DNA from: Halichondria panicea
Taxonomy: Eukaryota > Porifera > Demospongiae > Suberitida > Halichondriidae
NCBI RefSeq assembly: GCF_963675165.1
Contig: NC_087377.1
Span: forward strand, 14,318,198-14,382,197
Direction: 5' to 3'
DNA: 64,000 bases
Part shown: positions 17,911 to 64,000 of the stretch, piece by piece
How the letters are laid out: each line of letters starts with the position of its first letter
Position numbering within the stretch: position 1 is the first letter of the stretch
The notes under the pieces: generated by a model
Told to the model about the DNA's origin: nothing
The model's input: only the letters and a program-made list of their open reading frames with translations
The model's database searches: none
Program-made: the position numbers and the translations under genes

Positions 17911-20900
17911 ATGATTGAAAGATGCTTTGTAATCTGTCTGCTAACCTGGTTACATTACTGCCAAGGTATGTAATTATTTTATGTACATCACTAAAATAAC
18001 AATTTAAAATTATATAGGTATGTCAGTAAGTGTATTTACAGAGGCCGGAAAAGAAACACTTTCTGGTTTGCACTGTCGTACTACTGTTAAACTTTTCTGC
18101 AATGCTACGAATCTTCTTCATTTTCGATGGACATACAATGCCAGCAAAATAGAAATTGTTAATTTTCAACCTGATGGTATACTAACTTTGAACCAGATGA
18201 CTACTACTTATTCAGCATTTCCCTTTGTCCAGCTAACACAGTTCAATGCATACAAAAACCAGCAAAATCAGTCACGGATTAACGCTTCAACAATTCTTAC
18301 TGTTGATCTCTCAGAGCTCTACAAGCAAAACATTGAAATCATTTCTTGTGGTTCTACTAGCCCAAAGGATACAGCCACATTGCCAGTGAATATCAGCATC
18401 TTACTGCCATTTTTTCCTTCTGTTACTCCCGACGTTTATGTAAGTGTGACCATACGCTATGAGTCTGGAGTATTGTCTAGTGTGGATGTATCATGGAGAA
18501 AATTTCGGGTAAGTATGAATTTAAATAGAGTCTTGGATACACTTGCATTGACTTGTATATATAGCAACCGGATTGTCCTGAATATGACAATTCACAAGAA
18601 TACCTCATCAATGTCACTGGATGTGGGTGGATGTGGATCAACCATAGCACCTGTGAAGATAATATTTGCTCGTCTCTGTTCAGTAATTGCACAGACAATG
18701 TTAGAGAAATTAATCTACAAGCCAAGATTTTTAACATTGAGAGTGAACAAGTACTTTATCCTACGTCTGTAGGTGAGAGCTATACTTACATTATGATGCA
18801 TTGATTGCCAACTTTTTTTACAGATTACGATAATCTCTATTTCAAACCTGTTGTTAACTGGTCGTCAATATGTCAAAATCATGTTCAATGTTTACCCATT
18901 CAAGGAGATAATAGTGAGCATCGAATGTGTACCATTCGCTACACTTTGAACCCGGAATATCGAAATCTATCAAATCCTATCAAAACTCTAGTCGGCGCAG
19001 CACCTGTCTTGCTTTCACATATCACTCCTAGTAATATGTACTACTTTGAGTTCTCCGTGTTGATGAATGAGACCCTGTTAATTGTGGAAAGAATGGAATA
19101 CATGATTACAGAAACAGGAGGTATAAAATGTATATTTTTAATTCAATATTTAGAGCACAATTTTAACTATTGCGTTTCCACGGAATTAAGGCACACCAAC
19201 AGAATTATTCCAGCTGAATGCAGGAAAAAATATCATCATTGCCACTATAATGCTTTTCTTTGGATGCTTTACTGTGCACACTACAGCGATATTGTGCCTC
19301 CTAAAATATCGGGATGCTAAAAGTAAGATTGTCGTTTCAATAATGGACATGTTATTTGTCATCATGCTTATATATACAGTCTCCAGATTGAATATGTTCA
19401 TTACTAAAAAACACGTTCAAATCTCAATCACACTGATCCTCCTGATGCTGTTTATTCTGTGTGCCACTCTGTTGACAACCTTTGCGATTATTTCAAATGG
19501 TATACGTAGATCTATAGCCATTAGGACTAGTGCTAGTCTCCTTTCATTGTTTGTTCGTTTTTCATAGAATCTGATGTGTGTTTCACAAACCAACAAGTTC
19601 CCAACAGTTTGCTTGATGCAATGTTAGTAATTTCATGCCTTGGGATAGCATTCATTCTCACTTATTGGGTCTCAGTGGGATACAAAGTTTATAAACAGAG
19701 TACAAAAGGTAAGATAAACATTAAACTTTATTGTTGCATGTAGCTACTTCATTCTACTTTCATAGAAATCAAAACCAAGCCTGAAAACCGCACAACGTAT
19801 GTTCTTCATAGTAAAGTTTTCTGTTTATCTATTATATATTTTAGGTCTCATTGCAATGGCAATCTTCATCAAAACGGCAAATCACATGTACAAATAGCTA
19901 AATCATTATGTAATCTACAGGAGCCAGTTGAGGTAATTTCTAATTGTATGTTAAACATGCAGAACGGATACACACTTCAACAGAGATGCAAGCTGTTATA
20001 TATTTCGTATTTTAGGAACATTATAATACTCTGGAACACGCCCTGAGTTCCAGACCATCAAACAGATATGACACACAGGACGAAATATATGGAAAAATTG
20101 AAGAGGTAGAACAACATATTTTTGTTGCATTTTGAGTGGGCAGATCAAAGGAAACACTGTGCCAATATCTGCCATATGGCACAGGTCAAAATAATGGTGA
20201 ACTGTGCCACTATCTAGATACTGGCATAGTATGGCTGAAGTTACCTAAAGCCCATCCTCCACCCAGTAACCTGAAACGGTCCCTTGTATAGTATAACACT
20301 GTTAACTATGGGGTGCCATTTGTATCAAAATTAATACAAATTGCCCGTACATCATAAATGAATACGTATATAAATGCAGGTGCCCCATATGTAAATGCAG
20401 CATGTGCATATAGCAAATGCAGCACGTACATTTGTATATGTACCTGATATATATAAATGCAGCAGCCTCATATAATAAATGCAGCAGTCCCATATAATAA
20501 ATGCAGCAGCCTCATATAATAAATGCAGCAGTCCCATAAAATAAATGCAACAGTCCCATAAAATATATGTAGCAGTCGCATATAATAAATGCAGCAGCGT
20601 CATATAATAAATGCAGCAGTCCCATATAATAAATGCAGCAGTCCCATATAATATATGTAGCAGTCGCATATAATAAATGCAGCAGCGTCATATAATAAAT
20701 GCAGCAGTCCCATATAATAAATGCAGCAGTCCCATATAATAAATGCAGCAGTCCCATATAATATATGTAGCAGTCGCATGTAATAAATGCAGCAGCATCA
20801 TATAATACACAGGGAAAATATTGAAATTTCCTGCTACAGTGCTGCTACAGTGCAGCCCTTAAGATCTGCGCATATCCTGAAAAATGGCAGGTGTCCTGCA

Positions 20901-23125
20901 AGTGTCCTGCAACCTACTTACAAAGGATAGTGCAACGTTTCCTGTATAGTTTCCTTTACTATTCCTAAAGAAGTTCAGGACATGTGTACGATTCATATAG
21001 GAAAGTCTACAGGAAATTTTGTACTATCCTGAAAGTATAGGAAATTTACTGTGATAAATGCAGCAGTCCCATATAATAAATGCAGCAGTCCCATATAATA
21101 TATGTAGCAGTCCCATATAATAAATGCAGCAGTCCCATATAATATATGTAGTAGTCGCACATAATAAATGCAGCAGTCCCATATAATATATGCAGCAGTC
21201 CCAATAATAAATGCAACGAGTGGGTAATGATCGTCCATGATATGATTGTTAGGATCGATGCCAAAGTCCATGCAAGTCTAAAATGAATGGCTATAGAGCC
21301 TAATTGCAGCAGAGCTCTCTTCTCACTCTTGCAGCTATCAATAGATATTATATATATAGCGTTCTAGTGCAGAGCTAACTATTATAAGTATAGAGTAGCA
21401 ACACTCAGTCACCATGGACAAGTTTTTATACGCACTCTTCTCAAAAGGCTACAATGTCATTGCAAGTAAGCAACACTTAGCATAACTCAAGAACGAATTG
21501 CAAATACACCAAGAAAATATGACTAGAAGGCCTATAGAAACTCTTACTTGCACTTCATTGATCCTTGAGCAGCTGTAGCAGCTATATATATATAGTCTAC
21601 ACACAAGACGCATAAACACACTACCGTTAATACCTCGCTTGCATGCGCATGCGCACCAAGACATAATTATTATATGCGATTGCATTTATTATATGTGACT
21701 GCTGCATATATTATATATGGGACTGCTGCATTTATTATATGAGGCTGCTGCATTTATTATATGCGACTGCTGCATATAATTATTATATGCAACTGCTGCA
21801 TTTATTATATGCGACTGCTACATATATTATATAAGGCTGCTGCATTTATTATATGAGGCTGCTGCATTTATTATATGCGACTGCTACATATATTATATGA
21901 CGCTGCTGCATTTATTATATGGGACTGCTGCATATATTATATGACGCTGCTGCATTTATATATATCAGGTACATATACAAATGTATACGTGCTGCATTTG
22001 TATATGCAACCACTTAATTTGCTATATGCACATGCTGCATTTACATATGGGGCACCTGCATTTATATATATGTATTCATTTATGATGTACGTGCAATTTG
22101 TATTAATTTTGACACAAATGGCACCCCATAATTTTCCCCCTATAATTAGACATTCGAGTATCTCCCTACGGACGTTGGTGTGTATGAGCCACTGAGGGCT
22201 ACAGAAAAATCGAAACCTGTTCCTAACCTGGCTGATGCCAATTACTCTCATCTTGGAGAAACACAACCAGAGTCTGCTATTTCTGACATTATTTGCAGCA
22301 TACGGATTCGGGTATGTGAATGTCAAGTCCTTGACTAAAATATATATCAGTTAATAAACTTGCACTTCAGGATGACTATGACGTTCTGGATAGAAATGAG
22401 ACTTCCTTGTGTACCAGTGTTGATATTCATGATCCATGTAAATTGGTGTATGGTAATCTTGAAGAGGTAAGCAAATCTTATTCGGGCATCGCCGCCCTCA
22501 CCGTTGCACACGGAAGGGAGGTCGGGAATCAACTATCCACAGTTTTGTTCTGGCCTGTTACGCAATAATAATATTATCATGACTTTAACTCATTCTAAGT
22601 GGGTGCTAGCCAATAGCGATGAATATCATTTATTAAAGTGGGTGTTGGCCACGCCTCTCAATAAATTCACACGTGATAAAGTTTGTGATAAAGTTGAGTG
22701 GGTGTGATCAGTCCACTTGAGATACTGTAATCTGATTGGAGCTGGTGGAATTCCACCAGCAAAAGAAATTAAACCGTGGATAGGCTTGATTCCCGACCTA
22801 GCTCCTTCCGTGCAACGGTCGAGGGCGACGGTGCCCGACTAAGCAAAGCTTATATTAGCTTATAAAAACTCAAACTACGAGCACACATTTTAGACTATAA
22901 TCAGTAACACTAATTTTATTTGTGTATACGCATAACATTGATTTGTAAATATACTAGGCCTCTATTGAACCCAATGGTGATGTCTATAATCAGCTAAGGC
23001 CAGAGGAGAAGTCAAGGCCAGTACCAAACATGACTGATTCCAACTACTCTCACATAGATGAAGAACAGAGTCTTCAGCGACAACTGAAGATCAGGCATTT
23101 CAAGAAGACAAAGTCTGGCAAATGA
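17911..23125 (+). CDS. Receptor A1: Ig/FN3-type ectodomain, three membrane helices, YxxL/I-rich tail
   Basis: Thirteen exons keep frame throughout and give 688 residues: 17911-17965, 18018-18508, 18565-18772, 18824-19120, 19203-19322, 19380-19499, 19568-19708, 19766-19796, 19845-19932, 20016-20105, 22150-22311, 22371-22466 and 22958-23125. Exon 1 is a signal peptide (MIERCFVICLLTWLHYCQ). Exon 2 is Ig-like (VKLFCNATN, RWTYN, IISCGS). Exons 3-4 carry Cys-rich and FN3-like sequence with many NxS/T sites. Exons 5, 6 and 7 each encode one hydrophobic helix. Loop charge predicts ectodomain outside and tail inside. The tail has YNTL, YGKI, YEPL, YDVL and YNQL, a pair of NYSH[LI] motifs and ITIM-like LVYGNL and SNYSHI. 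Its Ig exon is almost identical to A2 but its tail is not. Two transposons lie in its introns. Ligand and function are unknown; a recognition receptor is inferred. Confidence 0.85.
20309..22128. mobile_element. 1.8-kb foldback element carrying a 22-bp satellite, in A1 intron 10
   Basis: The ends TGGGGTGCCATTTGT and the inverse ACAAATGGCACCCCA are each flanked by TA. Arms of about 150 bp pair (20,309-20,480 with 21,940-22,128). Between them a 22-bp unit (ATAATAAATGCAGCAGTCCC plus AT) is repeated in one orientation at about 20,450-20,810 and 21,058-21,220, and in the opposite orientation at 21,675-21,965. A TTTCCT/AGGAAA-rich segment lies at 20,812-21,057. Long open frames here are repeat artefacts. 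The right end is only about 20 bp from the next exon's acceptor. Confidence 0.85.
22480..22840. mobile_element. MITE in A1 intron 12, about 11-bp target duplication
   Basis: The ends ATTCGGGCATCGCCGCCCTC and the inverse at 22,790-22,840 share arms of about 60 bp with small differences (including GTCGGGAATCAA). AAGCAAATCTT lies before it and AAGCAAAGCTT after it, an 11-bp duplication with one mismatch. The left duplication overlaps the splice donor of the exon ending at 22,466. Mutator-like elements make 9-11-bp duplications. Confidence 0.8.
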
Positions 23126-24723: not shown

Positions 24724-24725
24724 TA

Positions 24726-28796: not shown

Positions 28797-31358
28797 ATGG
28801 TTAAATATGAAAGATGCTTTGTAATCTGTCTGCTAACCTGGTTACATTACTGCCAAGGTATGTCAGTAAGTGTATTTACAGAGGCCGGAAAAGAAGCACT
28901 TTCTGGTTTGTACTGTCGTACTACTGTTAAACTTATCTGCAATGTTACGAGTCTTCATTTTTTTCGATGGACATACAATGCCAGCAAAATAGAAATTGTT
29001 AATTTTCAACCTGATGATATACTAACTTTGAACCAGATGACTACTACTTATTCAGCATTTCCCTTTGTCCAGCTAACACAGTTCAATGCATACAAAAACC
29101 AGCAAAATCAGTCACGGATTAACGTTTCAACAATTCTTACTGTTGATCTCTCAGAGCTCTACAAGCAAAACATTGAAATTATTTCTTGTGGTTCTATTAG
29201 CCCAAAGAATACAGCCACATTGCCAGTGAATATCAGCATCTTACTGCCATCTTTTCCTTCTGTTACTCCTGACGTTTATGTAAGTGTGACCATACGCTAT
29301 GAGTCTGGAGTATTGTCTAGTGTGGATGTATCATGGAGGAAATTTCGGGTAAGTATGAATTTAAATAGAGTCTTGGATACACTTGCATTGACTTGTATAT
29401 ATAGCAACCGGATTGTCCTGAATATGACAATTCACAAGAATACCTCATCAATGTCACTGGATGTGGGTGGATGTGGATCAACCATAGCACCTGTGAAGAT
29501 AATATTTGCTCGTCTCTGTTCAGTAATTGCACAGACAATGTTAGAGAAATTAATCTACAAGCCAAGATTTTTGACATTGAGAGTGAATTACAAGTACTTT
29601 ATCCTACGTCTGTAGGTGAGAGCTATACTTACGTTATGATGCATTGATTGCCAATTTTTTTTTACAGATTACGATAATGTCTATTTCAAACCTGTTGTTA
29701 ACCAGTCGTCTTACTCTAGATGCCAAATTTATGTCCAGTGTTTACCCATTCAAGGAGATGTTAGTGAAGATCAAATGTGTACCATTAGATACACTACAGA
29801 TCCGGAATATGGAAATCTATCAAATCCTATCACAACTCTAGTTGGCATAACACCTGTTTCACTTTCACTTACTACTCCTGGTAATATGTACTATTATGAG
29901 TTCTCCTTGTTGGTGAATGAGACCTTGTTGATTGTGGAAAGAATGGAGTACATGACTACAGAATCAGGAGGTAAATAAATGTAAAGTAACAACCGTCACA
30001 GCTTTAGTGACTGAGCAATCGTCTTATTGTATTGATTGATTACTTTTGAGAACTCTCCCCCTACAGAATTATTCCAGCTGGGTGTAAGAGAGGGTGCTAT
30101 CTTTACTATTGTATCATCATTCTTAGGATGCTTTATTGTCCACATTACAATGATATTGTGCCTTTTAATAGCTCGGAAAGGTAAGCATAAATTTCACTGT
30201 CACTATACATGAAGCAAAGGCCACCCCACGCACCTCATGTTTATACAGTATCCAGATTGAATGTGTCCATTACCAACAAAGTTCTTCAAATCTTGATAAC
30301 ACTTATTTGTTTCATGTTCTTTATTGCTTGTGGCACTCTGTTGACAAACTTTGCGATTATTTTAAATGGTACGTATTGGAATGGTGCCAACTCTCATTTG
30401 CAATACTTTCTGTATTTGTTTCATTACAGATGTGTGTTTCACAAACCAACAAGTTCCCAACAGTTTGCTTGATGCAATGTTAGTAATTTCATGTGTTGGG
30501 ATAGGAATCCTTCTCCTCTATTGGGTGTTTATAACATACAAAGTATATAAACAGCGAACTAAAGGTAATTTAAAGTGTAACCATTCAAAGTTGTATCTTT
30601 TTCATATCATAATCCTGTATATAGGAACCAACAGCATGCCTGAAAACACAACGTATGTTCTTTCTATAATTATTATGTATCTGTACAGTTTTAACTATTT
30701 ATTATAGGTCACATCACGACAAGCCTCTACCTCAGAACATTAATTCACAAACAGCTCAATGTAATATTCAAGAGTCATCTGAGGTAATAAATCACAGTTT
30801 CAGTTTTAATATCTATATACATTTGCTTTTCAGAAGCCACCCGATTCTCGAGAGTGCCAGCATATGCAAACCAAAAGTGTTAATGAAAATATGGTTCCAA
30901 TGCAAAATGTAATAATTCAAAAGACGCTATCCAATAGCAGCCAGCTAGTTACGTCACCTAGCAGAAAAAATCCACCCTCCACAAAATCAAGTCAGCATTT
31001 CAACAATGTTTTGTATGATGAGGTTGGAAATGTCTCGGATATGACAGAAGTCGAGTTGAAAGCTAACGAGTCTTACAGGCACACAGATAAGATGTTTTTA
31101 ACTGCAAAGAGTAATGTGGCTGCTTGCCCATTATGTTCGACACCAGCCAGCAAAATCCAGCAAGGTTTGTCATTAAGTCATCAGTACAGCGAGATCAAAG
31201 GGAAACCAAAGAGTGAGCATCCTGAGCTAAATGCTATGGAGCAGGAGAAGATAGAGTTGAAGTCTAATCAGTCGTATTGTCAGCTAACAAGTACTGTGGG
31301 TCAGATAGGGGGATGTGAACCACTGCACGAGTACGACTATATATACGTGGACACCTAG
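28797..31358 (+). CDS. Receptor A2: Ig/FN3-type ectodomain, three membrane helices, ITIM-bearing tail
   Basis: Nine exons keep frame and give 687 residues: 28797-29348, 29405-29615, 29668-29970, 30067-30180, 30249-30368, 30430-30564, 30625-30652, 30708-30783 and 30834-31358. Unlike A1, A3 and A4, the signal peptide (MVKYERCFVICLLTWLHYCQ) and Ig-like domain share one exon, so intron 1 is missing. The Ig exon and the following intron are nearly identical to A1. Three single-helix exons follow. The long last exon is the tail: VLYDEV fits the ITIM consensus, and it also has VELKANESY, HQYSEI, IELKSNQSYCQL and a terminal EYDYIYVD. A CPLC pair sits mid-tail. This tail matches A3, not A1. A decayed kinase copy follows downstream. 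Function is inferred only from architecture. Confidence 0.85.
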
Positions 31359-31719: not shown

Positions 31720-32840
31720 TGCACACATGCACAAACACCATAACATGCACACACACCCTCACATGTCTAATTGGGTTGACGCAAGGAAACTGTTGTTTTC
31801 TAAGGCACCAAAATCCTGTGAAAGAAACATCAAACACATGCAGAGAAATGTCACGACCCACCCGTTTCTAGTGGGACTACATACTTCTACTATACTAGCT
31901 ACTTTCAAACGAGCACTAAGCTGTATTTTGTATTTTGTGCTGGACTATATGTGAATGGTGGAAAGCTATTCTTTCATAACGAGAGAGAAGGTTTTACGAG
32001 CTCAGACCAGATGAGTATAAGTCAGTCTAGCTCGGTTTAATTTAATCGTTAAGTAATCCTTCATCTGTGCATGCAATGCAAATACAACATATAATAATTA
32101 TGCCATTGACCCACTGTGTATATGCCTTGGTTAAGTGTGAACTACCATATATATCTATGGAACTACATATTTATACAGAGAAAGATCTGTATAGAGATAA
32201 TTATAGTTGAGCACCTTAAGCAATATTCATTAAGTATCTGTAAATACGGTCAGTGACAAAGCATGTACGGGCCCTGTAATTTTTTTTATATACTTTTATA
32301 TTTTGCTGAGATCACTTCTGCCCTCAGATATGTGCAGGTGCAATATGGTCTCAACGCTGAAAACATGCTACTGGACACGTATACTAAAGGACGACACATC
32401 ACACAAACGAGCTTTGGACTTCGCAAAGAAAACCTCAGAGACACGACTGCAACATTTTGCGGCACCCTACGTTTACCTGCCTCAAAAAGACACAAGACAA
32501 GCATGGCTGCAGTATCTACTGGTGGTGTCTGGGCGTGGTCACCTACCAGATTATATGGGCTCAGTACCACCGTACTTTTATGACTTGAGATCTTGCTCTA
32601 ATTTACGTGTTCATCAACATCAATTCAACAACATCAGTTCAACATCAGTTCAACAACATCAATTGCATGCAGTGCTGGATACCTATTCAACAATTTAGCA
32701 CATCTGTATAATTATAGGGTCAGGAACTGGTAATATTGAAGACATTAAAGTGCACTGAGTATAACAACTGTGATAACTAAATTGCATGTGCCTCTCCTCC
32801 ATTCAACCGCCTGGTAAAAGATTCCCTCCATCATTCATTA
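31720..32840 (+). pseudogene. SGK-like kinase pseudogene 1
   Basis: It aligns with both exons of the kinase at 59,225-61,329. The N-lobe part at 31,760-31,990 has RNVTTHPFLVGLH and a broken LDY.VNGGKL. The C-lobe part at 32,300-32,580 has EITSALRY, ENMLLD, FGLRKEN and TATFCGT. A final GTGNIEDIKVH piece lies near 32,720. Stops, frameshifts and a missing catalytic segment make it non-functional. It keeps the canonical T-loop TFCGT that the intact gene has lost. It is followed by a receptor remnant. Confidence 0.85.
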
Positions 32841-36644: not shown

Positions 36645-39626
36645 ATGCTTTGTAATCTGTTTTCTAAACTGGCTATACTATACTGCCAAGGTATGTACAA
36701 TGAGTCCTTAAAAATAACTTGGCATTTGTGGATTCTCAATAGGAAAGTCAGTACATTTAATTATGGATGATGGAAAAAATACACTTTCTGGTTCGTACTG
36801 TCCAACAACTGTTAAACTTATCTGCAATGTTACGAATGTTCCTAATTTGCTATGGACGTACAATAATGGCAGTAAAATAAACATGATTATTTCTGATTTT
36901 CAAACTGATCATGCAATAACTTTCGACCCGATCACAACTGATTTTTCAGCATTTCCATTTGTCCAGTTAACGCAGTTCAATGTATATAAAAACCAAAACA
37001 ATCAGTCACGGATTAATGCTTCAACAATTCTCACTGCTGATCTCACAAAGCTCTACAACCAGAATATTAGATTACTTTCTTGTGGTTCTGTTAGTGTGAA
37101 TAAGACAGTGCCAGTGAATATCAGCATCTTACAGCCATATTTTCCTGCTATTTCTCACGTTTATACAAGTGTGGTTGTACGCTATGAGTCTGGACTTGTA
37201 TCAAATGTAGATGTATCATGGAGAAAATTTCAGGTACGTATATATAGTATACTTCTTGATAATAATGCTTGTAAATTGATTGGAAACATCAATATTCAAT
37301 TGCATGCACATGGCATCGCTTGTAGCAACTAGATTGTCCTGAATATGAAAATTCACAAGAATACCTCATCAATGTTACTGGATGTGGGTGGATGTGGATC
37401 AACCATAACACCTGTCAAGATATCACTTGCTCGTCAGTTTTCAGCAATTGCACAGAGTATGTGAGAAAAATTACACTACAAGCCAAAATCGCTGACATTG
37501 AGAGTGAACAAGTAGTCTATCCCACATCTTTAGGTAAGAGCTTTAACTTTATATTGGTATGGTATTATATTTATCGACCGTTTTTACAGATTACTATAAT
37601 CAATATTTCCGACCTGCTGTTAATCAGTCGTCGAGGTGCCAAATTCGTGTTCAGTGCTTACCTATTCATAGATATTTTAGAGGGAATCAAACGTGTACCA
37701 TTCGATACACTACAGATCCAGAGTATGGAAATCTATCAAATCCTATTATGAATCCTGTTGGCAAAACACCTGTCTTACTTTCACATGTCACATCTGGTTC
37801 TATGTACTACTTTGAGTTCTCAGTGTTGGTGAATGATACCTTACTGATCGCAGAGAGAATTGAGTACGTTACAGAATCAGGAGGTACGGGAAGGAATTTT
37901 TCTTGAGATAATAGTTTAGAGCCACTTCAATTGGCAAGATCTTGTCTCATAGACATGTGCATGCTCATTTTCTACGATACATACTGCACACACCTACAGA
38001 ATTGTTCCAGTTGGGTGCAAGAGAAGGCGTCATTATTGCCATTACATCAGTTTTCTTAGGATGCTTTACTGTACACACTATGATCGTAATGTGCCAATTA
38101 AAATTGAATAGTAAGTATACCGTATAGCGTGTAATTTTCGTGGGGCAAAATATTCGTGGTTTTCGTGGTTGGAGGTCTGACCACGAATATTTTACCCACG
38201 AATGAAGCGACCTTACCTACCTTTACCTGCAGTGCAAGCAGCAACCACGAAAATATTACCCACGAAATGTCTCAATATTGCTGAACCACGAATATTTTGT
38301 CCTCCGAAAATTACCCGCTATACGGTATACATGTATACGTTAATTTTTGTCACTCAATTATATCAATATTCGGTATCTATGGTTATAGTGTCCCTCATCC
38401 CTCAGGCAAAGCCCTCGTGATATGGGACACTATAACACATAGATACCTCATGCCCATGTACTATCTATATAACATAGTATTATGATAATTATTGCAGAGG
38501 GTCATCCTACAGTTTCCAGGTTCATTTCTAACAAACACATTCAATTCTCGATAACACTGATCCTCTTCATGTTCTTTATTGTGTGTGGAACTCTGTTGAC
38601 AACTTTTGTGATTGTTTCAAATGGTACGTATTGGACTGGTGCCAACTCTCGTTTGCAATACTTTGTGTGACATTGTTTTTAATACAGATATGTGTTTATT
38701 AAATGAAGAAGTTCCCAACAGTTTGCTTGATGCAATGTTAGTACTTTCATGTGTTGGGATAGGAATCCTTCTCCTCTATTGGGTCTTCATACAATATAAA
38801 ATATACAAGCAGCATACTAAAGGTAACTTAGAGAGAGTAATTAATATTGTATTATACATCTTTTCATGCATCTTATTTTGTGTATATAGGAACCAAAAAC
38901 AAGCCTGAAAATACGACGTATGTTCTTCCTTTAACATGCAGTACAGTTAATTATTTAATATAGGTCTCATTGCGACTATGCTCTTCGTTCGAACATCTCT
39001 TCACAAAGAGCTCAATATAACGCTCAAGAGTCACCTGAGGTAATTAAATTGTGTTTCAAATTAAGACAATTTATTTTGCTATTCAGAAGACACCTGATTC
39101 TCAGGAGTGCCAACAATTGCATCCCGAAGGCGTTAACGAAATGGTTCCAATGCAGAAGAAGCCTTTGAATGGCAGCCAGCTAATGACGACACCTAGTAGG
39201 AAATGTCCACCCTCTACACTTCCCAAACAAAGAAAATCAGGTCAACATTCTAACAGTGTTTTCTACGATGAGGTTGGTTTAGCAAAAGTGAAAGGCAATG
39301 TCTCGGATATGACAGAAGTTGAGTTGAAAGCTAACGAGTCTTACGGGCACACAGACAAGAGGTTTTCAACTGCCAAGAGCAACGTGACTGCTTGTCCATT
39401 ATGTTCAACACCAGCCAGCAAAATCCAGCAAGATTTGTCATTACGTCATCAGTACAGTGAGATCAAAGCGAAACCGAAGAGTGAGCATCCTAAGCTGAAT
39501 GCTATTGAGCAGGAGCAGATAGAGTTGAAATCTAATCAGTCGTATTGTCAGCTAACAAGTGCTGTGGGTCAGATAGGAGGATGTGAACCACTGCACGAGT
39601 ACGACTATATATACGTGGACTCCTAA
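36645..39626 (+). CDS. Receptor A3: Ig/FN3-type ectodomain, three membrane helices, ITIM-bearing tail
   Basis: Ten exons keep frame and give 679 residues: 36645-36690, 36743-37233, 37326-37533, 37590-37883, 38000-38110, 38513-38623 (or from 38498), 38688-38822, 38890-38917, 38964-39039 and 39087-39626. The start is unusual. The ATG homologous to A4's start leads out of frame because of a 2-nt insertion (TA) near the end of exon 1. An ATG at 36,645 restores the frame and gives MLCNLFSKLAILYCQ, still hydrophobic. The Ig-like exon has VKLICNVTN, LLWTYN and LLSCGS. Three single-helix exons follow. The tail has VFYDEV (ITIM-like), VELKANESYGH, HQYSEI, IELKSNQSYCQL and EYDYIYVD. Exons 3-9 are almost identical to A4 while the Ig exon differs. 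A MITE lies in intron 5. Confidence 0.85.
38120..38325. mobile_element. CCGTATAGCG MITE in A3 intron 5
   Basis: It starts CCGTATAGCGTGTAATTTTC, ends CCCGCTATACGG and is flanked by TA. The equivalent A4 intron (from 63,316) lacks it, reading GTAAGTATAATTATTATAT, so it inserted after A3 and A4 diverged. Confidence 0.92.
38372..38448. repeat. 77-bp hairpin in A3 intron 5, absent from A4
   Basis: GGTATCTATGGTTATAGTGT is inverted as ACACTATAACACATAGATACC with one mismatch-size difference, around a short loop. The A4 intron lacks it, so it is probably a very small MITE. Confidence 0.75.
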
Positions 39627-48369: not shown

Positions 48370-49740
48370 CTGGCTGTTGAAGCTCTTTGCGGATGACCTT
48401 GCTCACATGATGCATGATCTCAATAGGGAGAAGGAGATACGGCATCTCAGCCAGCGCATCGTGGGGCCATAGGGTTGTTTCCACTTTTCTGATAATTGGG
48501 AGGCAAGTCTTTTAATAGAAAGTGGTTGCGATTGGGGCCAGTCCTCTGGTCAACGAAAACACGAGGGGGGAGAATGAGGAGTGTTCTATCTCACGGACTT
48601 TTTGTTCGTATTGCCTTTTCTTTTCTTTTTCGTGGCTCCTGTATGTGGCGGACATGGAGCGCTTTTGGTTAGAGGGGGGGCAGGGGGTTGAATACCCTCA
48701 CATCTAGGTACGTTCTCAAGTTTCAAAGGTACTTCCCCAGAATCCGTCCACCACCACGTCAAGGCGGGCACCATCCTGTTTATTTGTTGAGGCGCCTTCA
48801 AAGGTTTCACTTGTCACTGGTTGTAGGGTGGGTTCTGTTGCGACATCGTGGCAGGTTTCTTTCAGCAGAGAGGCAGTGATATCTCTCAGTTCATTGTGCC
48901 TTATACTGGGGTAGCCTCCTCTGGGGCATGAGAGAGCGTGTTGAATGGAGAACGTCTGTCCACAAACACAGTGGGATGGTGTGTTTGCTGGGGGCCAACC
49001 ATACCTCAGGGCTATTGCGTCACGAAAGGCAGTTTTGTGTATAGGGTAAATTTGTGCTCTTCCAATGGTAAAGCAGATAGCCAGCTTGAGGCACCTTTCT
49101 CGCTCCCAAGGTCCATCGCTAGTTGTTGAGGTTGAGGCAGGGAATCTCTAACCATAATTGCAGATTGTTTTGCATGTTCACCTCTTTTCTCTCTGACAAT
49201 TATTTTTTCCTCCATTTGTTCCACAAGAGTGTCGTACGGGTACGTGATGTTCTTTGCTACTATAAGATCCACAAGGGGTTTTGTAATTGACTTAGACATA
49301 ATAAACTGTTCTCCGGCTGTTGCGGCAGGGTCAGGGAGGTTTAACCCACCAAGTCTTGTTAGTAATGCGAACAATTGTCTTTCTGTGTCGTTGGGGGCTT
49401 CTCTTCCAGTGAGTTTTGGGATTAGGTGACACCTGACGGTTTGCTCTAGGGGGTTTAAAAGCATGATATGTTTGGAGTTGTTCTAGTGAGGTACGCCCAT
49501 TTGCTGGTGAATCCATGTGTCATTGAGCATGTGGTTGGCTATCGGCAATTTCTGAAAGCTTCACAATTTCTTCACACCATACCTTCGCTTTTTTATTCAC
49601 AAAGTTTACGATAAATTCTGGTTTTCCAATGGGGGAGCCAAGCACTGTTGGACTGTCACGACAAAATCGGTCCGCTGCCAAATTTAGTTCACATGCACCA
49701 AAGATGGTCCGGCCGCCACGCTTGATTTGTGTAGCCAAAG
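48370..49740 (-). mobile_element. Retrotransposon fragment, region C-terminal to the reverse transcriptase
   Basis: Minus-strand frames carry blocks common in a family of invertebrate retroelement proteins: VLGSPIGKPEF and WCEEIVKLSEIADSQPHA (49,690-49,520), PNDTERQLFALLTRLGGLNLPDP (split here, near 49,400), LGSEKGASSWLSALPLEEH (near 49,090), GARLDVVVDGFWGS (near 48,745), and KRLASQLSEKWKQPYGPTMR-like sequence (about 48,510-48,440). Frameshifts and stops separate them. The reverse transcriptase part would lie beyond 49,740 and is absent. I cannot assign the clade; a LINE-like element is most likely. Confidence 0.75.
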
Positions 49741-49814
49741 AGATGAAGATAATGCAGCTGCAGAGTGCTAGCTATATACAGTCAGAATAAGAAGCACAGA
49801 TTGACAGAGTAAGA

Positions 49815-51895: not shown

Positions 51896-52928
51896 ATGCC
51901 CATTGCATCCAAAATATTTATGCTTGCTGCTTTGCTCTGTTGCGCAGGTATGATAACTAAATGTGTATGCATGCTTGCATTTGTAGATTGGTTTTAATTT
52001 GTTCTCAGGCTCATCCACTGATGAAACTTTCAGGCCTATATTGACTAGTCGCTTAAACAACTCATCTCTCACATTGAATTGTTCAGTGAACTGTTCCTAC
52101 GCAAAAATTATTTGGAATATAGGAAATTCTAGATCTAATCGTAACAATATCTACAATATCAATGGAATTCAAAATTTTATTCAAACAAATACTACTAATC
52201 GGCGTTGCACCATGGATAATACAACACCACAAATATTTGAGCTAATAATTGACATTTCGATTCCAAACATAAGTTCAATTTTGCCAAGTATCACTTGTGT
52301 AGGTGTGCTAGGAAGGGACGACAATTTTGTCTTCAGTGCAAATACTGTTAATCTAGCGATATTACTCACTGAAAAAACAAGTAAGTGGTCAATTGTAAAT
52401 TAAATATCATTCCTAATACGATTGATTGTTGTTCTCCCCTATTTAGGTGTGAACCAAAGTGAAACATCTTGGCCTATATTGACGTTGTGTTTTTCACAAG
52501 TTTCAGGAAGAGGAGAGTGGGTGCCTAATCCTGCTGACCTACTTTGTGAAGAAGGTGTCTTATACAAGATAGCTTCTGACATGACATTATATAATAATTG
52601 TCTCCATGTACAAGCACCCATTACTAACGAATCAGTTCATATCAATACCTCTTGTGTATCAGAGAAAGATGGCGACTCTTTATCAATTGCTGAGATTACA
52701 GGAGTGAGTACAAGCATAACGTTCTTAATGGCAACACTCCTTGGATTCCTCGCTGGACTCGTTATGATGCACCTTTGCTCTCATAAGAAGGCAGTGTACT
52801 CCCCAGCAGTTGAAGGACAAGCTAACATAGAACCTATTGCACCAGCTAGTCCTGTTTATGAGGAGGTGTTACCTAAAGAAGAGATTGAACTCAATACTAA
52901 CCAGGCTTATGGACCAGTAAGAGTGTGA
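51896..52928 (+). CDS. Receptor C: small single-pass Ig-like receptor
   Basis: Three exons keep frame and give 301 residues: 51896-51947, 52009-52380 and 52447-52928. Exon 1 is a signal peptide (MPIASKIFMLAALLCCAG). Exon 2 is Ig-like (LTLNCSVNC, KIIWNIGN, PSITCVGVLG) with several NxS/T sites. Exon 3 has a second Cys-containing extracellular region (EWVPNPADLLCEEG...NCLHV) and one membrane helix (ITFLMATLLGFLAGLVMMHL) with GxxxG spacing followed by Cys-Ser-His-Lys-Lys. The short tail has PVYEEV and EIELNTNQAYGPV, the latter matching the tail motif of A2, A3 and B1. It lies between the retroelement-rich stretch and the duplicated block. No duplicate was found in the window. Confidence 0.87.
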
Positions 52929-53477: not shown

Positions 53478-53570
53478 AGTGTTTCTCTGACTGTTGAGGG
53501 AGGAGTGAGTCTGGTTGGTGAACACTGTCCTGAAACTGTCAGACTGTTGTCACGGAGTGGACCTCACCAT
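53478..53570 (+). pseudogene. Fragment of a type-B Ig exon
   Basis: It matches the first 90 bp of B1 exon 2 (GTTTCTCTGACTGT..., GAACACTGTCC), on the + strand, opposite to B1 and B2. It breaks off after the first Cys region. It shows a third type-B copy once existed in inverted orientation. Confidence 0.8.
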
Positions 53571-53989
53571 TTTGACATGGTTATGCCGAACAGGGCCGTA
53601 GCCACCAGTCCGGTTAGTCAGGTTTCAACCTAGCCTCGAGACCAGGCCGATTAAAATACGGTCTATTGCATGGGTTATAGTGCACATGTGCCAACTGAGG
53701 AAAACATTGAGAGGATGGGCACTAAGAATTAACTTAGTTATTCTTCTAATTTGTCAAATACTGGTAAGATTATTAACTAAGGTATTGAGAGGTTTGAAAG
53801 CATCATTTCTCAAGAGCGATAGACTATAATTATATGAATCTCCAATTATACATACGTGAGATATTTGAGCGTAAGTTCAAATGACCCTTCCCAACTACAA
53901 TCAGCTACAGTAGAGACTTTGAACACATTGGTGGTTTGTAAACCGTTCATTCAGTGGATCCTGTAGATCACTAAAAATACCGATCCCAA

Positions 53990-54400
53990 AATTTCTGATG
54001 AGATCACCTCTGCCCTAGGGTACCTAAATAGGCTCAATAATTTCTATTGGGATTTCAAACCTAAAAAAATTACTAGACACAAGGGTCACATCATACTAAC
54101 GTGCTTTGGATTTCGCAAAGAAACCTTGGGGACGCAACCACCTCAACTTTTTGTGGCACCCCCAAACATAACATTTTATCCCAAAGCAAAAGAGAGGCTG
54201 CAATGTCAACGGGTGGTACGTGGACTGGTCACCTATACCTAATGATGCACGAGCTGCCACCGTTTTATGCTTGAGATGTTGTTCTACTTTTAAGAATCAA
54301 TGTACTACAACTGCAGCCTTTAGTTCTTGGAGTTTATCAATTGTACCTTTTCGCCTTTTTTGCTGGTAATTTTTCACGCTATTTGGTGGTTTATCCGGCC
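53990..54400 (+). pseudogene. SGK-like kinase pseudogene 3
   Basis: It covers the C-lobe start: DEITSALGYLNRL, then FYWDFKPKKI, GHIILT, FGFRKET and a frameshifted TFCGTP region near 54,150. It shares the Tyr-Trp-Asp form of the catalytic loop with the intact gene. Stops and frameshifts abound. No N-lobe piece is seen. A receptor remnant follows. Confidence 0.8.
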
Positions 54401-55469: not shown

Positions 55470-56998
55470 TAAAGCAGTTAATGAACGTAATCGTACTCCA
55501 CTTTATTCTCTGGGTCAGTGGATACTCTTGCCAAACCATACGACTGATTCACTTCCATGTTCATCTTGCCTCTTCTATATAGCTCCACTTCTTTTCAAAA
55601 TTCCCACTTTATCGTAAGATAGGTTAGCTTTTAATCTCATTTCCTCATCTGGTCGAGAACGTTCCTTCTTTGGCTTTCCATAAGACTCGTTAGGAATTGA
55701 ACTTACACTCGACTTTGTATAAACACTACTGCCTATTATTGGATCATCGGCTTCACAATAAAAGTGAGTCAGGTCTTCATTTTGATGTGCTGCTTCTGGA
55801 TTCGATTAGACAACCTCCCGATCAATTTCCCTTGATTCTTGTATTCGTATTTCCGGTGCATCCACTCTCGGTTGCACTCTAGTCTCCGTTTCTCTTTTTA
55901 ATTTTATGATTAGTAATTTTTTCAGCACAATATAGAATGTACCAACTCCCGTGACGAAACCGAGTACCAAAGAGAATATGAATATATACAACAACAGTAG
56001 TTGCTACGGTCACTCCGATAGATACACCATTGGAACTGCTGTCTGTCACTGAAATTACAGCTGCTGATGTAAAGCTCATGCATTCATAGAACTCACCTAT
56101 AAAAAATATTATGTAGGACAGGATCACTTCTCCCCACGTTGTTAATAGCTTGGAGCTCCAACACGTAGTTACCATCTCCAGAAAGCGGGACAGTGAATGT
56201 GACGCTACACACCATTGTACATGCAGGTACCACTATTAGTAGTTGAGATGTGATGATAATCATTCCCAGTTAGGATGGCCTCATAGCGTATTTGTCGTCT
56301 AGAAACAGGGCACGCCACAACCCACGATAGACAATCATGCATGGATCAGATACGGTATAAATGTATAGCCCCTGGGCCAGTATTGCATGGTAAAAATGGT
56401 ATGGCTTACTGGTGGTTCCCATGAAACGGTCAGCATAACAGAAGCAGAAGATTTAAAGGATTTGGCAATATTGATTTGTTGAGGGTCTTCTGATAATGCA
56501 TGCATGTTGCCTTACCTGAACATCAATTGTGATTGTCTGGTGCGTTACCGGATCGCCGCATCTGATTTCATTAATGTGCTGCTCCTCAAGCTCTGAGATG
56601 TCGAGGGTAAGAGTTGAAGAAAAGTTTCCAAAATTCCGTTGATCACTCTGCAGAACTGAGCTCAACTCAACAGAAATAAAGGCTGGATTTGGTACAGTTT
56701 GAGTAGAAATCATACTGTCAGGATAGAATGAATGAATTTCTTCCTTAGTGACATTGTAACTCCAACGCAAACTAGTGAGGTCCACTCCCTCACAAAACAG
56801 TCTGACAGTTCCAGGACAGTGTTCACCAACCAGATCACTCCTCCCTCGACAGTCAGAGAAACACCTGCAACATGATTACATGCACTCAATGTTGCATAGC
56901 AAATCATGAAAACATGCAGGGATCTTACTAATTGCTCCGATTTGTCCAACAGTGAAACACAGTAAGACAATACTCATTACCAAGTGAAATACTGCCAT
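55470..56998 (-). pseudogene. Receptor B2: disabled duplicate of B1
   Basis: All four B1 exons are recognisable (exon 1 56998-56929, exon 2 from 56,864, exon 3 near 56,320-56,100, exon 4 near 56,060-55,470). Three lesions are clear. A 1-nt deletion near 56,834 shifts frame early in the Ig domain. The acceptor of exon 3 has lost its AG (GATAGACAAT side near 56,325). In exon 4 the Tyr codon of the first tail motif became TAA near 55,806. Further indels affect the helix and tail, including a 9-bp loss near 55,700. B1 is therefore the only intact type-B gene here. Confidence 0.88.
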
Positions 56999-59224: not shown

Positions 59225-61329
59225 GTCTTCTTTGGTCGACACAAGGAAAATGGTGCTTTCTATGCCATAAAAGTCCTACAAAAGAAAGCAATCATCAAAC
59301 ACAGCGAGGTTGAACGCATATTAGCCAAGAGAAGCGTCGCGATCCACCCATTTCTAGTGAAGCTACATTACTCCTTTCAGACAAAGAAAAAGCTGTATTT
59401 TTTGTTGGACTATGTGAATGGTGGAAAGCTGTCCTCTTATCTGCGAAGACAGAAAAATAATGTGTTTGATGAGCACAGTGCAAGGTGAGTATATATAGTT
59501 AGACGCCAGTATACATTATGCTTAAGCGGCTTATTTATAGGTAGCTTCTATAAACTGCCGAGCTATATAGTGCTTGCAGCCTAGAGAGTAAAATACCACA
59601 ATAGGGTCAGTATAGTTGTACCCTTAAATGTATCTCAAGATTGGCTAAGGAATTGTGCTGATAACATTTTATAGGGGAATGAATAAGCTACAACATTATT
59701 TTTAAAATATTTCCCCAAAAGTTGTTGTAGTGGAAAATCATTTTAAGTGAAAATGGATGATCGTAAAAAAATATGTGTAACATAAAAATTTAATATCTAA
59801 CTTTGTATCAAAAGATAGAGAATTTATTAACTATTAATGCGCAAAAACAATTAGACCTTAGCCGATAAATTTGCTTGAGTTCCATTGCTAAGCAAAAAGG
59901 CACCCAATAATTGAGTTAGTAATCAGTTTGTGTACATAATGTAAACTTTACGAAACCATGCATAATGTTAGAATAAACTATTCATGAATGTTGTGCCAGA
60001 GTTCCCTTACCTTAGCCGACAATGATTGGTCTTTTCCATCGCTAAGCAATTGTCTACTATAGAACATTTTTGCTCTTATATAAACCACCACATAAACATC
60101 ACCTTTGGAAACAATTTTGACCATATTTTAGAGTATTCTTTTATATACACAATGGTATCAGCAAAATTTCTTAGAAATGTTCCCATCACAAGATATTCAC
60201 ATTTATGTACCAATACCAGCAAATTTGCGTTTTTTTACTCTCTAGATCGCATGCAAGTACTGTATATGCATAATTATATAGACATGAGTACGTGCATGCC
60301 TTACAGTGTGTTGAGGGTATATCTATAATTATAGGTGTAGGTATGTAGAGAGAGAGAGAGAGAGAGAGAGATTTTTGCTTTCATATTATATGTGAATGAG
60401 CATGTTCTTAAGTTTTCAAGATGGCCTTATCAACTCAAAACACACATACAATTGAGACTTCAAGTCTCTCAAAATAGGATTAACCGTACTAGCGGATGGT
60501 TTTGCAAATGAGCAGAAAATTGACCCTTTGCGATCCAACCATTGCGTTCTGGCAAGGATCGTGTGTATTTATACTAGTACTTATTTAGGTTTTGCATGCG
60601 ATGCATGCAACCCTCGCAAAGTTTGCATATGTTTGATGCGAAACGTTCTAGTAATACGTCATAAATTATATATTTATTGCTCAACAATATTTTCCTTACA
60701 GATTCTATGCTGCTGAGATCACCTCTGCCCTCGAGTACCTACACGGTCTCAGTATTATCTATTGGGATCTCAATCTTGAAAACATCCTACTGGATGCTAA
60801 CGGTCACATCATACTAACAGACCTTGGACTCCGCAAAGAAGAGGTCACATTTCGAGAGACAGTAACAACTTCTGGCATCCCCAAATGCCCAGCCCCTGAG
60901 GTGCTCAGAAATGAAGAATACGATTTCAGCGTCGACTGGTGGTGTCTAGGCGTGGTAACCTATGAAATGATGTGTGGGCAGGCACCAGTAAATTTTTATT
61001 CTGAAGATGGTTCTCAAAAGCACAAGAATATTATTCAGATGCCACTACATATAAATTCCCGTGCACAAGACCTGCTCGAAAAATTGCTACAAGACAAAAA
61101 TAATCGATTAGGTGATGCTAAAGACATTAAGGCTCACATGTTTTTCAATTCCATCAACTGGGATTACCTGTTTGATAAGCGATTGAAGCCTCCGTTCAAC
61201 CCTCCTCCGGTAAAGGATACCCTCAAACTTGGAGATTTTGGGTCTGAGCTTACTGCCGTGGCTATTTCTGGCGCACAGGGTGTGCCATGTGTGAGCATTG
61301 CTGACGACACTTTTAATGTAATGAACTAG
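59225..61329 (+). CDS. SGK-like AGC kinase, probable pseudokinase, N-terminus not found
   Basis: Two exons, 59225-59484 and 60702-61329 (stop TAG), give 295 residues. Exon 1 starts in phase 0 after the glycine loop (VFFGRHKENGAFYAIKVLQKK, with the ATP-binding Lys) and runs through HPFLVKLHYSFQTKKKLYF. Exon 2 has RFYAAEITSALEYLH, the catalytic loop as YWDLNLEN (canonical YRDLKPEN in SGK), DLG for DFG, GIPKCPAPEVL for GTPEYLAPEVL, and DWWCLGVVTYEM. The C-tail has FFNSINWDYL and PPFNPP but no FxGFSY hydrophobic motif. An upstream exon with the glycine loop is not visible; the preceding DNA belongs to the duplication junction. The ORF is intact, yet the loss of the catalytic Arg and Lys equivalents and of the DFG Phe argues against normal catalysis. 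It lies 540 bp upstream of A4. Confidence 0.75.
60347..60371. repeat. (GA)n microsatellite in the kinase intron
   Basis: An uninterrupted run of about 12 AG units, the only long dinucleotide tract in the window. Confidence 0.95.
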
Positions 61330-61865: not shown

Positions 61866-64000
61866 ATGCTGAAATATTATACAAGATGCTTTGTAATCTT
61901 TCTGCTAAGCTGGTTATACTACTGTCAAGGTAAGTGAAACAATTTTATTCTAGAGACTCTTTATTGACTTAATTGTGGACAATAATTATATAGGAATGTC
62001 AGTAAGTGTAATTACGGATGATGGAAAAGATACACTTTCTGGTTTGTACTGTTCTACTACTGTTAAACTTATCTGCAATGTTACAAATCTTCCTTTTGTG
62101 CAATGGACATACAATACCAGCAAACAAGTAATTGTTAGTTTTCAACCTGATAGTGTAGTACGTAATCTCGACCCAATCGTAGCATTTCCATTTTACCAGT
62201 TAACACAGTTCAATGCATACAAAAACCAAATGAATCAGTCACGAATTAACGCTTCAACAATTCTCACTGTTGATCTCTCAGAGCTCTACAACCAGAATAT
62301 TAAAACTATTTCTTGTGGTTCTTTTGTTTTAAACAAGACAGTGCCAGTGAATATCAGCATCTTGCAGCCATCCTTTCCTTCTGTTAGTCCTCAAGTTTAT
62401 ACAGCTGTGATCGTACGCTATAACTTCGGACTTATATTTAGTGTAGATGTATCATGGAGGAAATTTCAGGTAAGTATAGTGCTTAAGACATAAAGATTTG
62501 AATGCGCACTGCACGGCTGCTATAGCAACCAGATTGTCCTGAATACGAAAATTTCCAAGAATACCTCATCAATGTCACTGGATGTGGGTGGACGTGGATC
62601 AACCCAAGCACCTGTCAAGATAATATTTGCTCGTCAGTTTTCAGTAATTGTACAGATAATATGAGTGAAATTACCCTACAAGCCAAGATTGCTGACACTG
62701 AGAGTGAACCAGTAGTTTACCCCACATCTATTGGTGAGAGCTTTAACTTGGTAGTATTACATTTATTGATCGTTTTTATTTATTTACAGATTACTATAAT
62801 CAATATTTCCGACCTGCTGTTAATCAGTCGTCGAAATGCCAAGTTCATGTTCAGTGCTTACCTATTCATAGATATGTTAGAGGAAATCAAACGTGTACCA
62901 TTCGATACACTACAGATCCCAAATATGGAAATCTATCAAATCCTATCATGAATCCTGTTGGCACAACACCTGTCTTACTTTCACACATCACACCTGGTTC
63001 TATGTACTACTTTGAGTTCTCAGTGTTGGTGAATGATACCTTACTGATCGCAGAGAGAATTGAGTACGTTACAGAATCAGGAGGTACGGGAAGGAATTTT
63101 TCTTGAGATAATAATTTAGAGCCACTTCAATTGGCAAGATCTTGTCTCATAACATGTGTGCATGCATGCTCATTTTCTACAATATATACTGCACACACCT
63201 ACAGAATCGTTCCAGTTGGGTGGAAGAGAAGGCGTCATCATTGCCATTACATCAGGTTTCTTAGGATGCTCTACTGTACACACTATAATCGTAATGTGCC
63301 AATTAAAATTGAATAGTAAGTATAATTATTATATATATACGTTAATTTTTGTCACTCATATCAGTATTGGTATAATAATAATTATAGTATTATGATAATT
63401 ATTGCAGAGGGTCATCCTACAGTTTCCAGGTTCATTTCTAACAAACACATTCAAATCTTGATGGCACTGATCCTCTTCATGTTCTTTATTGCGTGTGGAA
63501 CTCTGTTGACAACCTTTGCGATTATTTCAAATGGTGCGTATTGCCAACTCTCATTTGCAATACTTTGTGTGACATTGTTTTTAATACAGATGTGTGTTTA
63601 TTGAATCAAGAAGTTCCCAACAGTTTGCTTGATGCAATGTTAGTAATTTCATGTGTTGGGATAGGAATCCTTCTCCTCTATTGGGTCTTCAGACGATATA
63701 AAATATATAAGCAGCCCACTAAAGGTAACTTGGAGAGAGTAATTAATGTTGTATACATCTTTTCATACATCTTATTTTGTGTATAGGAACCCAAAACAAG
63801 CCTGAAAACATGACGTATGTTCTTCCTTTATCATGCAGTACAGTTAATTATGTAATATAGGTCTCATTGCGACTATGCTCTTCGTTCGAACATCTCTTCA
63901 CAAAGAGCTCAATATAACACTCAAGAGTCACCTGAGGTAATTAAATTGTGTTTCAAATTAAGACAATTTATTTTGCTATTCAGAAGACACCTGATTCTCA
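61866..64000 (+). CDS. Receptor A4: Ig/FN3-type ectodomain with three membrane helices (3' end outside the window)
   Basis: Exons keep frame: 61866-61929, 61994-62469, 62526-62733, 62790-63083, 63205-63315, 63423-63533 (or from 63408), 63590-63724, 63787-63814, 63861-63936 and 63984 to the window end. Exon 1 is a signal peptide (MLKYYTRCFVIFLLSWLYYC). Exon 2 is Ig-like (VKLICNVTN, VQWTYN, TISCGS) and five codons shorter than in A3. The Cys-rich exon has CPEYENFQEY and CGWTWINPSTC, the FN3-like exon CTIRYTTDP, and three single-helix exons follow. The visible tail start (TSHCDYALRSN) matches A3, so an ITIM-bearing tail is expected beyond the edge. It follows the intact kinase in the same orientation. 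Confidence 0.85.

Follow-up and report, generated by a model that had tools for sequence, protein, structure and literature searches.

A linked, recombining cluster of probable surface recognition receptors in the sponge Halichondria panicea, with a predicted three-helix membrane anchor in three subfamilies

To our knowledge, recognition loci are hardly known beyond vertebrates and a few model invertebrates. The Alr proteins of Hydractinia are single-pass type I proteins with tandem V-set-like Ig-like domains, heads that are poorly detected by sequence, and tails with Tyr motifs of the ITIM or ITAM type. The vertebrate KIR, LILR, and SIRP genes form tandem clusters of paired or inhibitory receptors, also single-pass, in which shared backs with Tyr tails carry variable fronts, while CD47 has neither an FN3 stalk nor a long Tyr tail. 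Hydractinia Alr is described as a sizeable group of linked surface-receptor genes that have diverged from one another and include possible pseudogenes (PMC11876637), and an inter-domain disulfide of CD47 (C15-C245), which joins the head to extracellular loop 2, is reported as necessary for full SIRPalpha binding and signaling (PMC8410850). Within the excerpts of open-licence literature searched, neither a three-pass Ig/FN3 receptor family nor a sponge receptor complex is described.

The window analyzed here, a stretch of 64,000 nucleotides, had been proposed in a preliminary description to hold a cluster of Ig/FN3 receptors with three membrane helices and tyrosine tails, and a duplicating receptor family is supported. 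The cluster is in fact bigger than stated: all 72 head-exon matches in the assembly fall on a single contig, with 65 of them packed into 653 kb. Among these are 17 A-like loci, 10 of which are open from the head to TM3 with fitting splice sites (the start of exon 4 is uncertain in one, L008). Several family copies are broken, such as L014 and L017, which are disrupted inside the exon of the second FN3 domain (FN3 no. 2); inside the window, the broken copies are B2 and one F-type copy. Outside the receptor family, five of six cathepsin-L-like loci read keep the catalytic Cys and the sixth (L062) has SSWAF, with no clear silicatein among them; two innexin hits are weak, and models of Cys-loop and ionotropic glutamate receptors gave no match in searches whose controls were equally silent. 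The features of the window are as follows.

17911..19708, plus strand: A1, exons 1-7 with GT/AG splice sites and phases 1,0,1,1,1,1,1; signal 17911-17965, head 18018-18508, second part of FN3 no. 1 18565-18772, FN3 no. 2 18824-19120, TM1 19203-19322, TM2 19380-19499, TM3 19568-19708
20016..23095, plus strand: A1 tail, type T2, Tyr-rich; tblastn matches to L004 tail peptides at 20016-20105, 22150-22308, 22368-22475, and 22961-23095, exon limits approximate
28797..31358, plus strand: A2, with GT/AG splice sites in the front; signal and head 28797-29348, then 29405-29615 and 29668-29970, TM1 30067-30180, TM2 30249-30368, TM3 30430-30564, tail 30625-30652, 30708-30783, and 30834-31358 (T1 Tyr tail)
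31841..32591, plus strand: decayed AGC-kinase fragments downstream of A2 (tblastn, E 5e-4 and 1e-10)
36645..39626, plus strand: A3; signal 36645-36690, head 36743-37233, then 37326-37533 and 37590-37883, TM1 38000-38110, TM2 38498-38623, TM3 38688-38822, tail 38890-38917, 38964-39039, and 39087-39626 (T1)
42925..44457, minus strand: B1, read by eye with the head aligned; signal 44388-44457, head 43869-44320, second part of FN3 43561-43780, one TM and Tyr tail 42925-43511
51896..52928, plus strand: C, limits by eye; a different head at ~52009-52381, Sushi remnant 52497-52556, one TM and a tail ending in NTNQAYGPV
53478..53580, plus strand: F-type head remnant (tblastn)
54000..54122, plus strand: AGC-kinase fragment (tblastn)
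55484..56845, minus strand: B2, a broken B1 copy with frame breaks
59225..61272, plus strand: SGK3-like AGC kinase, two open exons, 59225-59485 and 60700-61272 (Pfam Pkinase, E 5.2e-12 and 6.3e-29)
61866..63724, plus strand: A4; signal 61866-61929, head 61994-62469, then 62526-62733 and 62790-63083, TM1 63205-63315, TM2 63408-63533, TM3 63590-63724, bulk of the tail outside the window (L065)

We consider it probable that these genes belong to a tandem, recombining cluster of surface recognition receptors built from exchangeable parts, with a three-helix anchor in subfamilies A, D, and F and swapped outputs. For A1-A4, the expected series of head, FN3, and three helix exons is borne out in all four genes, with GT/AG splice sites and consistent phase; each helix exon is in phase 1-1 and encodes one hydrophobic helix. 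The proposed signal peptide (read by eye) and FN3 also stand; the Ig-like nature of the head is not confirmed, and the Cys-rich exon is probably no separate unit. The head exon already closes on an FN3-type VSW strand, and we join its end to the supposed Cys-rich exon as what would be a single FN3 domain (FN3 no. 1). The Tyr-rich tail expected on all four genes is present in A2 and A3, but the tail of A1 is of a different type, in several pieces reaching ~23,095, and that of A4 lies mostly outside the window. In A2, one uninterrupted exon encodes both signal peptide and head, unlike the two-exon starts of A1, A3, and A4.

The identity of the head was approached with 41 of 57 segments, the remaining 16 being broken, partial, or near-duplicate. 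In Pfam, none of the 41 heads matched a eukaryotic Ig model at E <= 1, nor did the three window head exons of A2, A3, and B1. A bacterial Ig-like model, Big_4, matched 2 of the 41 (best E 7.7e-4) and was not accepted as the head identity. PDB profile searches returned no useful match, and HERC2 (E 0.068) was taken as chance, as were reverse transcriptases, LINE-1 ORF2 included (E 1.1-2.9). The only invariant residues in the 41 heads are Cys, Trp, Leu, Leu, and Cys, and the head may be termed Ig only by this Cys-Trp-Leu-Cys pattern. An AF2 model of the A2 head, made from an alignment of five window sequences, was too poor to use (pLDDT 39.7). With hhalign, neither the head nor either FN3 gave a significant score against typed Ig and FN3 domains, and the folds were not separated; the best of eight typed Ig-type domains was CD47, at 9.8% probability. 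Exon 4, which encodes FN3 no. 2, looks like a whole FN3 in its best model of five (pLDDT 72.9, with 33-53 for the other four), which has seven strands. FN3 chains dominate its top Foldseek matches, one of them at E <= 0.001 (best 4.7e-4), and its neighbors include FN3s from neogenin/DCC, NCAM, and cytokine receptors, as for FN3s generally.

The three-helix module is also found in subfamilies D and F, whose heads are ~30% identical to those of A. Exons for TM1 and TM2, flanked by splice sites, occur in 9/9 D loci and, by an automatic rule, in 5/6 (TM1) and 4/6 (TM2) F loci, whereas B, C, and other members have a single helix in the stretches read. As hydrophobic open frames are present in wrong frames of this DNA too, hydropathy alone is no proof of helix exons; what sets the module apart from chance is that its splice sites are shared, that it is under purifying selection, and how its loops are charged. 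In the 10 A loci, TM1 and TM2 together have a pN/pS of 0.57 (codon bootstrap 0.42-0.79, from pooled pairs with shared ancestry ignored), and these extra exons are under purifying selection. Loop 1 carries a mean charge of +3.0 in A (n=10), +5.0 in D (four of nine loci), and +2.0 in F (three of six), and that of loop 2 is -1.9, +0.5, and -1.0 in the same sets, with values of +1 and +2 in two of the four D genes, against the expected acidity. The segment before TM1 in F is also basic (mean +1.3), which leaves the charge pattern of F weak. The loop charges fit an outside-in three-pass topology, in F weakly, and the three-pass N-out/C-in arrangement put forward earlier gains support from these charges, the kept helix exons, and the splice sites.

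As all three helix exons are symmetrical (phase 1-1), they could be skipped without loss of frame. This property, together with the phase and Cys that the single-pass subfamilies H and I share with the start of the TM3 exon, would favor a reading in which the helix exons are optional cassettes, the mature proteins being mostly single-pass with TM3 only and the three-pass or other forms being variants. We regard this as distinctly unlikely, given the purifying selection on TM1 and TM2 in A and the presence of these exons in A, D, and F. Furthermore, the basic flank of TM2 in A and D lies on its N-terminal side, which fits the second helix of a pair rather than a lone type I anchor. In the three-pass design that we favor, a TM1-TM2 hairpin would precede TM3 in A, D, and F, so that three helices hold the stalk, and the even number of added helices would leave the stalk outside and the tail inside. 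This is a testable membrane design in which receptor topology would survive the addition.

At its start, the TM3 exon is similar to the exon that encodes the helix in certain single-pass members, with H and I matching in phase and Cys. This loop or juxtamembrane Cys and the first Cys of FN3 no. 2 occur together in A (10/10), F (6/6), H (2/2), I (3/3), and D (7/8), while G is the sole group in which both are missing (2/2). Two cases are off-pattern: J (L036 and L041) has a Cys in the last FN3 and none at the helix exon start, and L021 has the loop Cys without a D-type FN3. Since the loop Cys mostly co-occurs with the FN3 Cys, the pattern suggests that a two-helix hairpin was inserted ahead of the original helix and became tethered to the stalk. 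The predicted tether is a disulfide between the TM2-TM3 loop Cys and FN3 no. 2, which would clamp the stalk to the membrane module. The tree of the 41 heads has no resolution along its backbone and needs two changes in helix number, one sufficing in 3% of 200 bootstrap trees; here, the F head L031 is counted as three-helix on the assumption that it forms one gene with the F helix exons of L032, ~8 kb further on.

Behind the membrane, the outputs vary. Among four tails scanned, ITIM-type motifs number one in T1 (A3), two in B1, three in T2 (from the L004 pieces), and zero in C, and none of the four contains an ITAM. The Tyr-motif tails of A, D, and B would be read by SH2 proteins. The phase run 1-2-0 after TM3 is common to Tyr-tail genes (A2, A3) and PX genes (FK1, FK2). 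A PX domain is found in L025 (Pfam E 6.2e-10), PX and kinase matches lie behind two F receptors (tblastn), and F receptors appear to end in a PX-AGC kinase, which would serve as their fused output. The window kinase (59225-61272) has altered motifs (HRD to YWD, DFG to DLG), and no PX was seen at this copy by tblastn. Judged by eye and by the PX domain of its relatives, the kinase family is probably SGK3-like, and its members are candidate kinases or pseudokinases. L051 carries a Death domain as its output module, through which it may signal.

These parts are exchanged among loci. The back of L014 is mostly 98-100% identical to that of L016, 1.95 Mb away, yet its front is only 44-59% identical to L016 and 89% to L020. 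Between five A and five D genes, the tails have a dS of 0.44 versus a saturated head, and the C front sits on two different backs, making C chimaeric relative to L021 and L053. By these comparisons, fronts, helix modules, and tails recombine, and duplication with front/back exchange yields new combinations of head and output. The members are likely recognition receptors, in which the variable head and FN3 stalk would bind a ligand displayed by another cell or by a microbe. As a special case, the heads may sense microbes innately by binding bacterial or symbiont surfaces, with diversity held between loci rather than alleles; the diversity among paralogues and the Death-domain, kinase, and Sushi modules in the family are consistent with this tentative possibility.

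Selection on the heads bears on the remaining alternatives. Across six subfamilies, head pN/pS is 0.38-0.59, and exon-wide values in A are 0.30-0.61; purifying selection thus acts on most of the head. In A, pN/pS rises above 1 in two loop regions, at 2.40 (permutation P 0.029) and 1.20 (P 0.010), as it does for B in its BC loop (1.07, P 0.26, three sequences), and the only other head cells above 1 are two four-codon cells without any synonymous change. With HI (pN/pS 0.57, P 0.045), three of 36 region-by-subfamily tests for positive selection reach P < 0.05, none after correction, and positive selection is at most hinted. Constraint of this kind, and the FN3 neighbors noted above, would also suit duplicated adhesion or guidance receptors without a recognition role, their divergence reflecting relaxed constraint and turnover. 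We find this unlikely, as a cluster this large, with outputs exchanged and backs in common, would be unlike single-copy adhesion genes. Overall head pN/pS below 1 also speaks against allorecognition, a further special case of the recognition-receptor reading in which receptor alleles decide fusion or rejection of neighbors, as in Hydractinia Alr. A single large linked complex with numerous paralogues and broken copies, Tyr tails, and front/back exchange speak for it, and on balance we hold it to be doubtful. The fullest version of recognition, an animal self/non-self complex in which Ig/FN3 ectodomains are disulfide-clamped to a three-helix module, fronts are recombined onto common backs, and signals leave by Tyr tail, PX-AGC kinase, or Death domain, seems to us quite unlikely; we know of no such chassis elsewhere.

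A linked, recombining complex with a kept three-pass anchor provides defined genes that grafts, crosses, and population surveys could examine. When compared, as an analogy, to Hydractinia Alr, the cluster likewise brings numerous related surface-receptor genes together in one linked complex, and it differs in having three helices in A, D, and F (one in B, C, and others), one head with FN3 or Sushi in place of tandem Ig-like domains, and kinase and Death outputs. The KIR, LILR, and SIRP clusters are similar in layout, again as an analogy alone, whereas the domains differ and three-pass members occur here. CD47 likewise places a head on a multi-helix bundle, although as an IgV domain on five helices versus three, and the comparable bond predicted here would link loop 2 to FN3 no. 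2 rather than to the head. Finally, the F genes seemingly place a kinase behind a membrane receptor, as do TGF-beta receptors and RTKs, but theirs is of the AGC/SGK3-like kind, accompanied by a PX domain, not TKL or TK, and has altered motifs. We know of no earlier receptor with a PX-AGC kinase output, and, if true, this would add a further category to the receptor kinases or pseudokinases.

Spliced models of the four type-A receptor genes (A1-A4) were derived from the genomic sequence of the window, whose place on its contig (C1, 18.1 Mb; genome 131 Mb, 39 contigs) is:

C1:14,318,198-14,382,197, the window

All modelled junctions in A1-A4 are GT/AG, and from exon 4 onward the exons, including the three that encode one helix each (TM1-TM3), are symmetrical in phase 1. 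These models bear out the three one-helix exons noted in the preliminary description. A2 (window 28797-29348) has no intron separating the signal peptide from the variable first ectodomain (the head), unlike A1, A3 and A4. After TM3, A2 and A3 have two small exons and then a single large Tyr-rich tail exon, and A4 has a tail of matching type, most of it immediately beyond the window end. A1, like L004 and L006 outside the window, carries another type of Tyr-rich tail (T2), which is split into several pieces; the D-subfamily gene L020 also has a T2-like tail, to which L019 and L021 show a short match.

Genome-wide, the A3 head has 72 exon matches (E <= 0.001), which are exon pieces rather than genes, some with stops. 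All 72 lie on C1, 65 of them within 13,881,961-14,535,424 and the other seven at 11.46-13.74 Mb. Our census of 55 fetched stretches, a subset of these matches, yields together with the window 57 head segments spanning at least about 90 profile positions. Ten of the 17 A-like loci (4 in the window, 13 fetched) are open from head through TM3 and seven are partial or broken. The start of exon 4 is uncertain in L008, and the L002 tail has one stop and one frame break. Elsewhere, window 61-2229 holds a 722-aa open frame with repeats of roughly 100 aa (NRPDEKNGQTEVVKPQTDEATY...), which pieces in L032 and L038 resemble by eye. Open frames at window 48716-49771 (-) resemble mobile-element remnants by eye; a Pfam scan of 48716-49147 gave no useful match. 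Two tandem weak innexin matches (27 bits; cut-off 25 bits) were seen at G000 C13:1,375,884-1,380,471.

The F subfamily and a kinase in the window point to a different kind of receptor back:

C1 14.01, 14.22, 14.40 and 14.47 Mb, F-type three-helix receptors with PX exons behind TM3 (L024-L027, L063, L064)
Window 59225-61272, SGK3-like kinase in two open exons, with YWD for HRD and DLG for DFG

In FK1 (L025+L063) and FK2 (L026+L064), two small exons behind TM3 are followed by PX exons; A2 and A3 have the same phase run after TM3 (1, 2, 0) but continue with the Tyr-tail exon. The PX strand FTVYK has no upstream in-frame Met in its exon at three of four loci (FK1, L024, L027) and one in FK2, and the L027 PX is broken shortly after this strand. 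AGC kinase exons come next in FK1 and FK2, and by eye their splice sites are compatible. On the phase run, the Met-less PX exons and these splice sites, F looks like a single receptor-kinase (or pseudokinase) gene, reading in phase from TM3 through PX to the AGC kinase in L025 and L026, the two loci followed furthest. Because HRD is replaced by YWD in the FK1 and FK2 copies, as in the window, and the Gly-rich loop is altered (VIWKG / VIRKG in FK1, FK2), the F kinases may be inactive; a relative at C1:17.68 Mb has YRD in place of HRD. The window copy is likely a pseudokinase or the relic of a broken F gene, and kinase relics are also found behind A2 and at other window sites.

Exon 4 probably encodes an FN3 domain (FN3 no. 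2), a call that uses the best of five models only, and the head as an Ig domain is unproven. Sushi domains are found by Pfam in the relatives L042 and L051. Downstream of the head/FN3/Sushi/single-helix receptor in L051 is a Death domain (L051:598-933 (-), Pfam E 2.4e-5), which we assume to belong to the same gene.

Fronts and backs appear to have been exchanged. L014 and L016, about 1.95 Mb apart, share 44-59% identity over the first 650 bases (the 5' part and head start), 76-90% over the next 600, and 98-100% further on, save two windows at 93-94%; this high identity sets in near the FN3 no. 2 exon. Over 1.6 kb the front of L014 matches that of L020 at 89%, and its back is almost identical to L016. 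L014, which may be a pseudogene, therefore combines parts resembling these two genes, as recent gene conversion or exchange would leave them. In L021, a C-type front that is 94% identical to window C over 723 bases precedes a three-helix back of D type, itself 93% identical to L019. Window C (51896-52928) carries that front on a single-pass back with 86% identity to L053, and one C-type front is thus found with two different backs, of three helices and of one. Between A and D, identity (five genes each) is 31% in the head, 19% in TM1, 24% in TM2, 43% in TM3 and 76% in the tail, and dS is 0.44 in the tails, 1.1 in TM3, 2.4 in TM2 and saturated in the head and TM1.

Head pN/pS is 0.59 in A, 0.55 in D, 0.38 in F, 0.58 in S, 0.41 in HI and 0.55 in B (three sequences). 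Two A regions, under names that presuppose an Ig fold, exceed 1 (BC-loop, 2.40; C'-D-loop, 1.20), which among 36 tests amounts to a hint of positive selection. Taken together, the clustering, the duplication, the broken copies, the shared backs under changing fronts and the range of signalling outputs suggest receptors for recognition; these may serve allorecognition of the Alr type or the sensing of microbes, or the genes may simply mediate adhesion.

The three helix exons occur in the same order in D (L014-L021, L055) and F (L024-L027, L032, L037). TM1 and TM2 are bounded by splice sites in 9/9 D loci and, by an automatic rule, in 5/6 and 4/6 F loci, respectively. In A, both exons seem to be in use, given a pN/pS of 0.57 for TM1+TM2 (codon bootstrap 0.42-0.79) and, singly, 0.60 (0.38-0.96) for TM1 and 0.53 (0.33-0.84) for TM2, the bootstrap being of pooled pairs with shared ancestry outside its model. 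The charge pattern proposed earlier was surveyed in 10 A genes, 4 of 9 D genes and 3 of 6 F genes. All 17 have a basic TM1-TM2 loop (+1 to +5), the TM2-TM3 loop ranges from -3 to +2, and a basic stretch follows TM3 in 15 (L004 and L006 are neutral there). In F, the stretch ahead of TM1 is also mildly basic, which makes its pattern weak evidence for topology.

In A, D and F the TM3 exon, entered in phase 1, opens with D or G, followed within three residues by a Cys (ESDVC in A1). The lone helix exon of H (L028, L038) and of I (L029, L030, L039) opens in the same way. This Cys occurs together with Cys 1 of FN3 no. 2 in A (10/10), F (6/6), H (2/2), I (3/3) and D (7/8), and G (2/2), a single lineage, has neither. 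The frame of L017 is broken at the FN3 no. 2 exon, and L014 has a stop inside it. Two cases speak against pairing: in J (L036, L041) the FN3 Cys is there, along with another Cys late in the FN3, but the helix exon does not open with one, and the chimaera L021 keeps the loop Cys although it lacks a D-type FN3. We infer that TM3 is the helix common to three-pass and single-helix members, with TM1-TM2 as a hairpin; a tree of 41 heads gave no decision on whether this was gained once, gained twice or lost. The TM2-TM3 loop is predicted to lie outside, disulfide-bonded to the stalk. CD47 is reported to have a disulfide between head and loop [PMC8410850], to which the loop-stalk bond predicted here is comparable.
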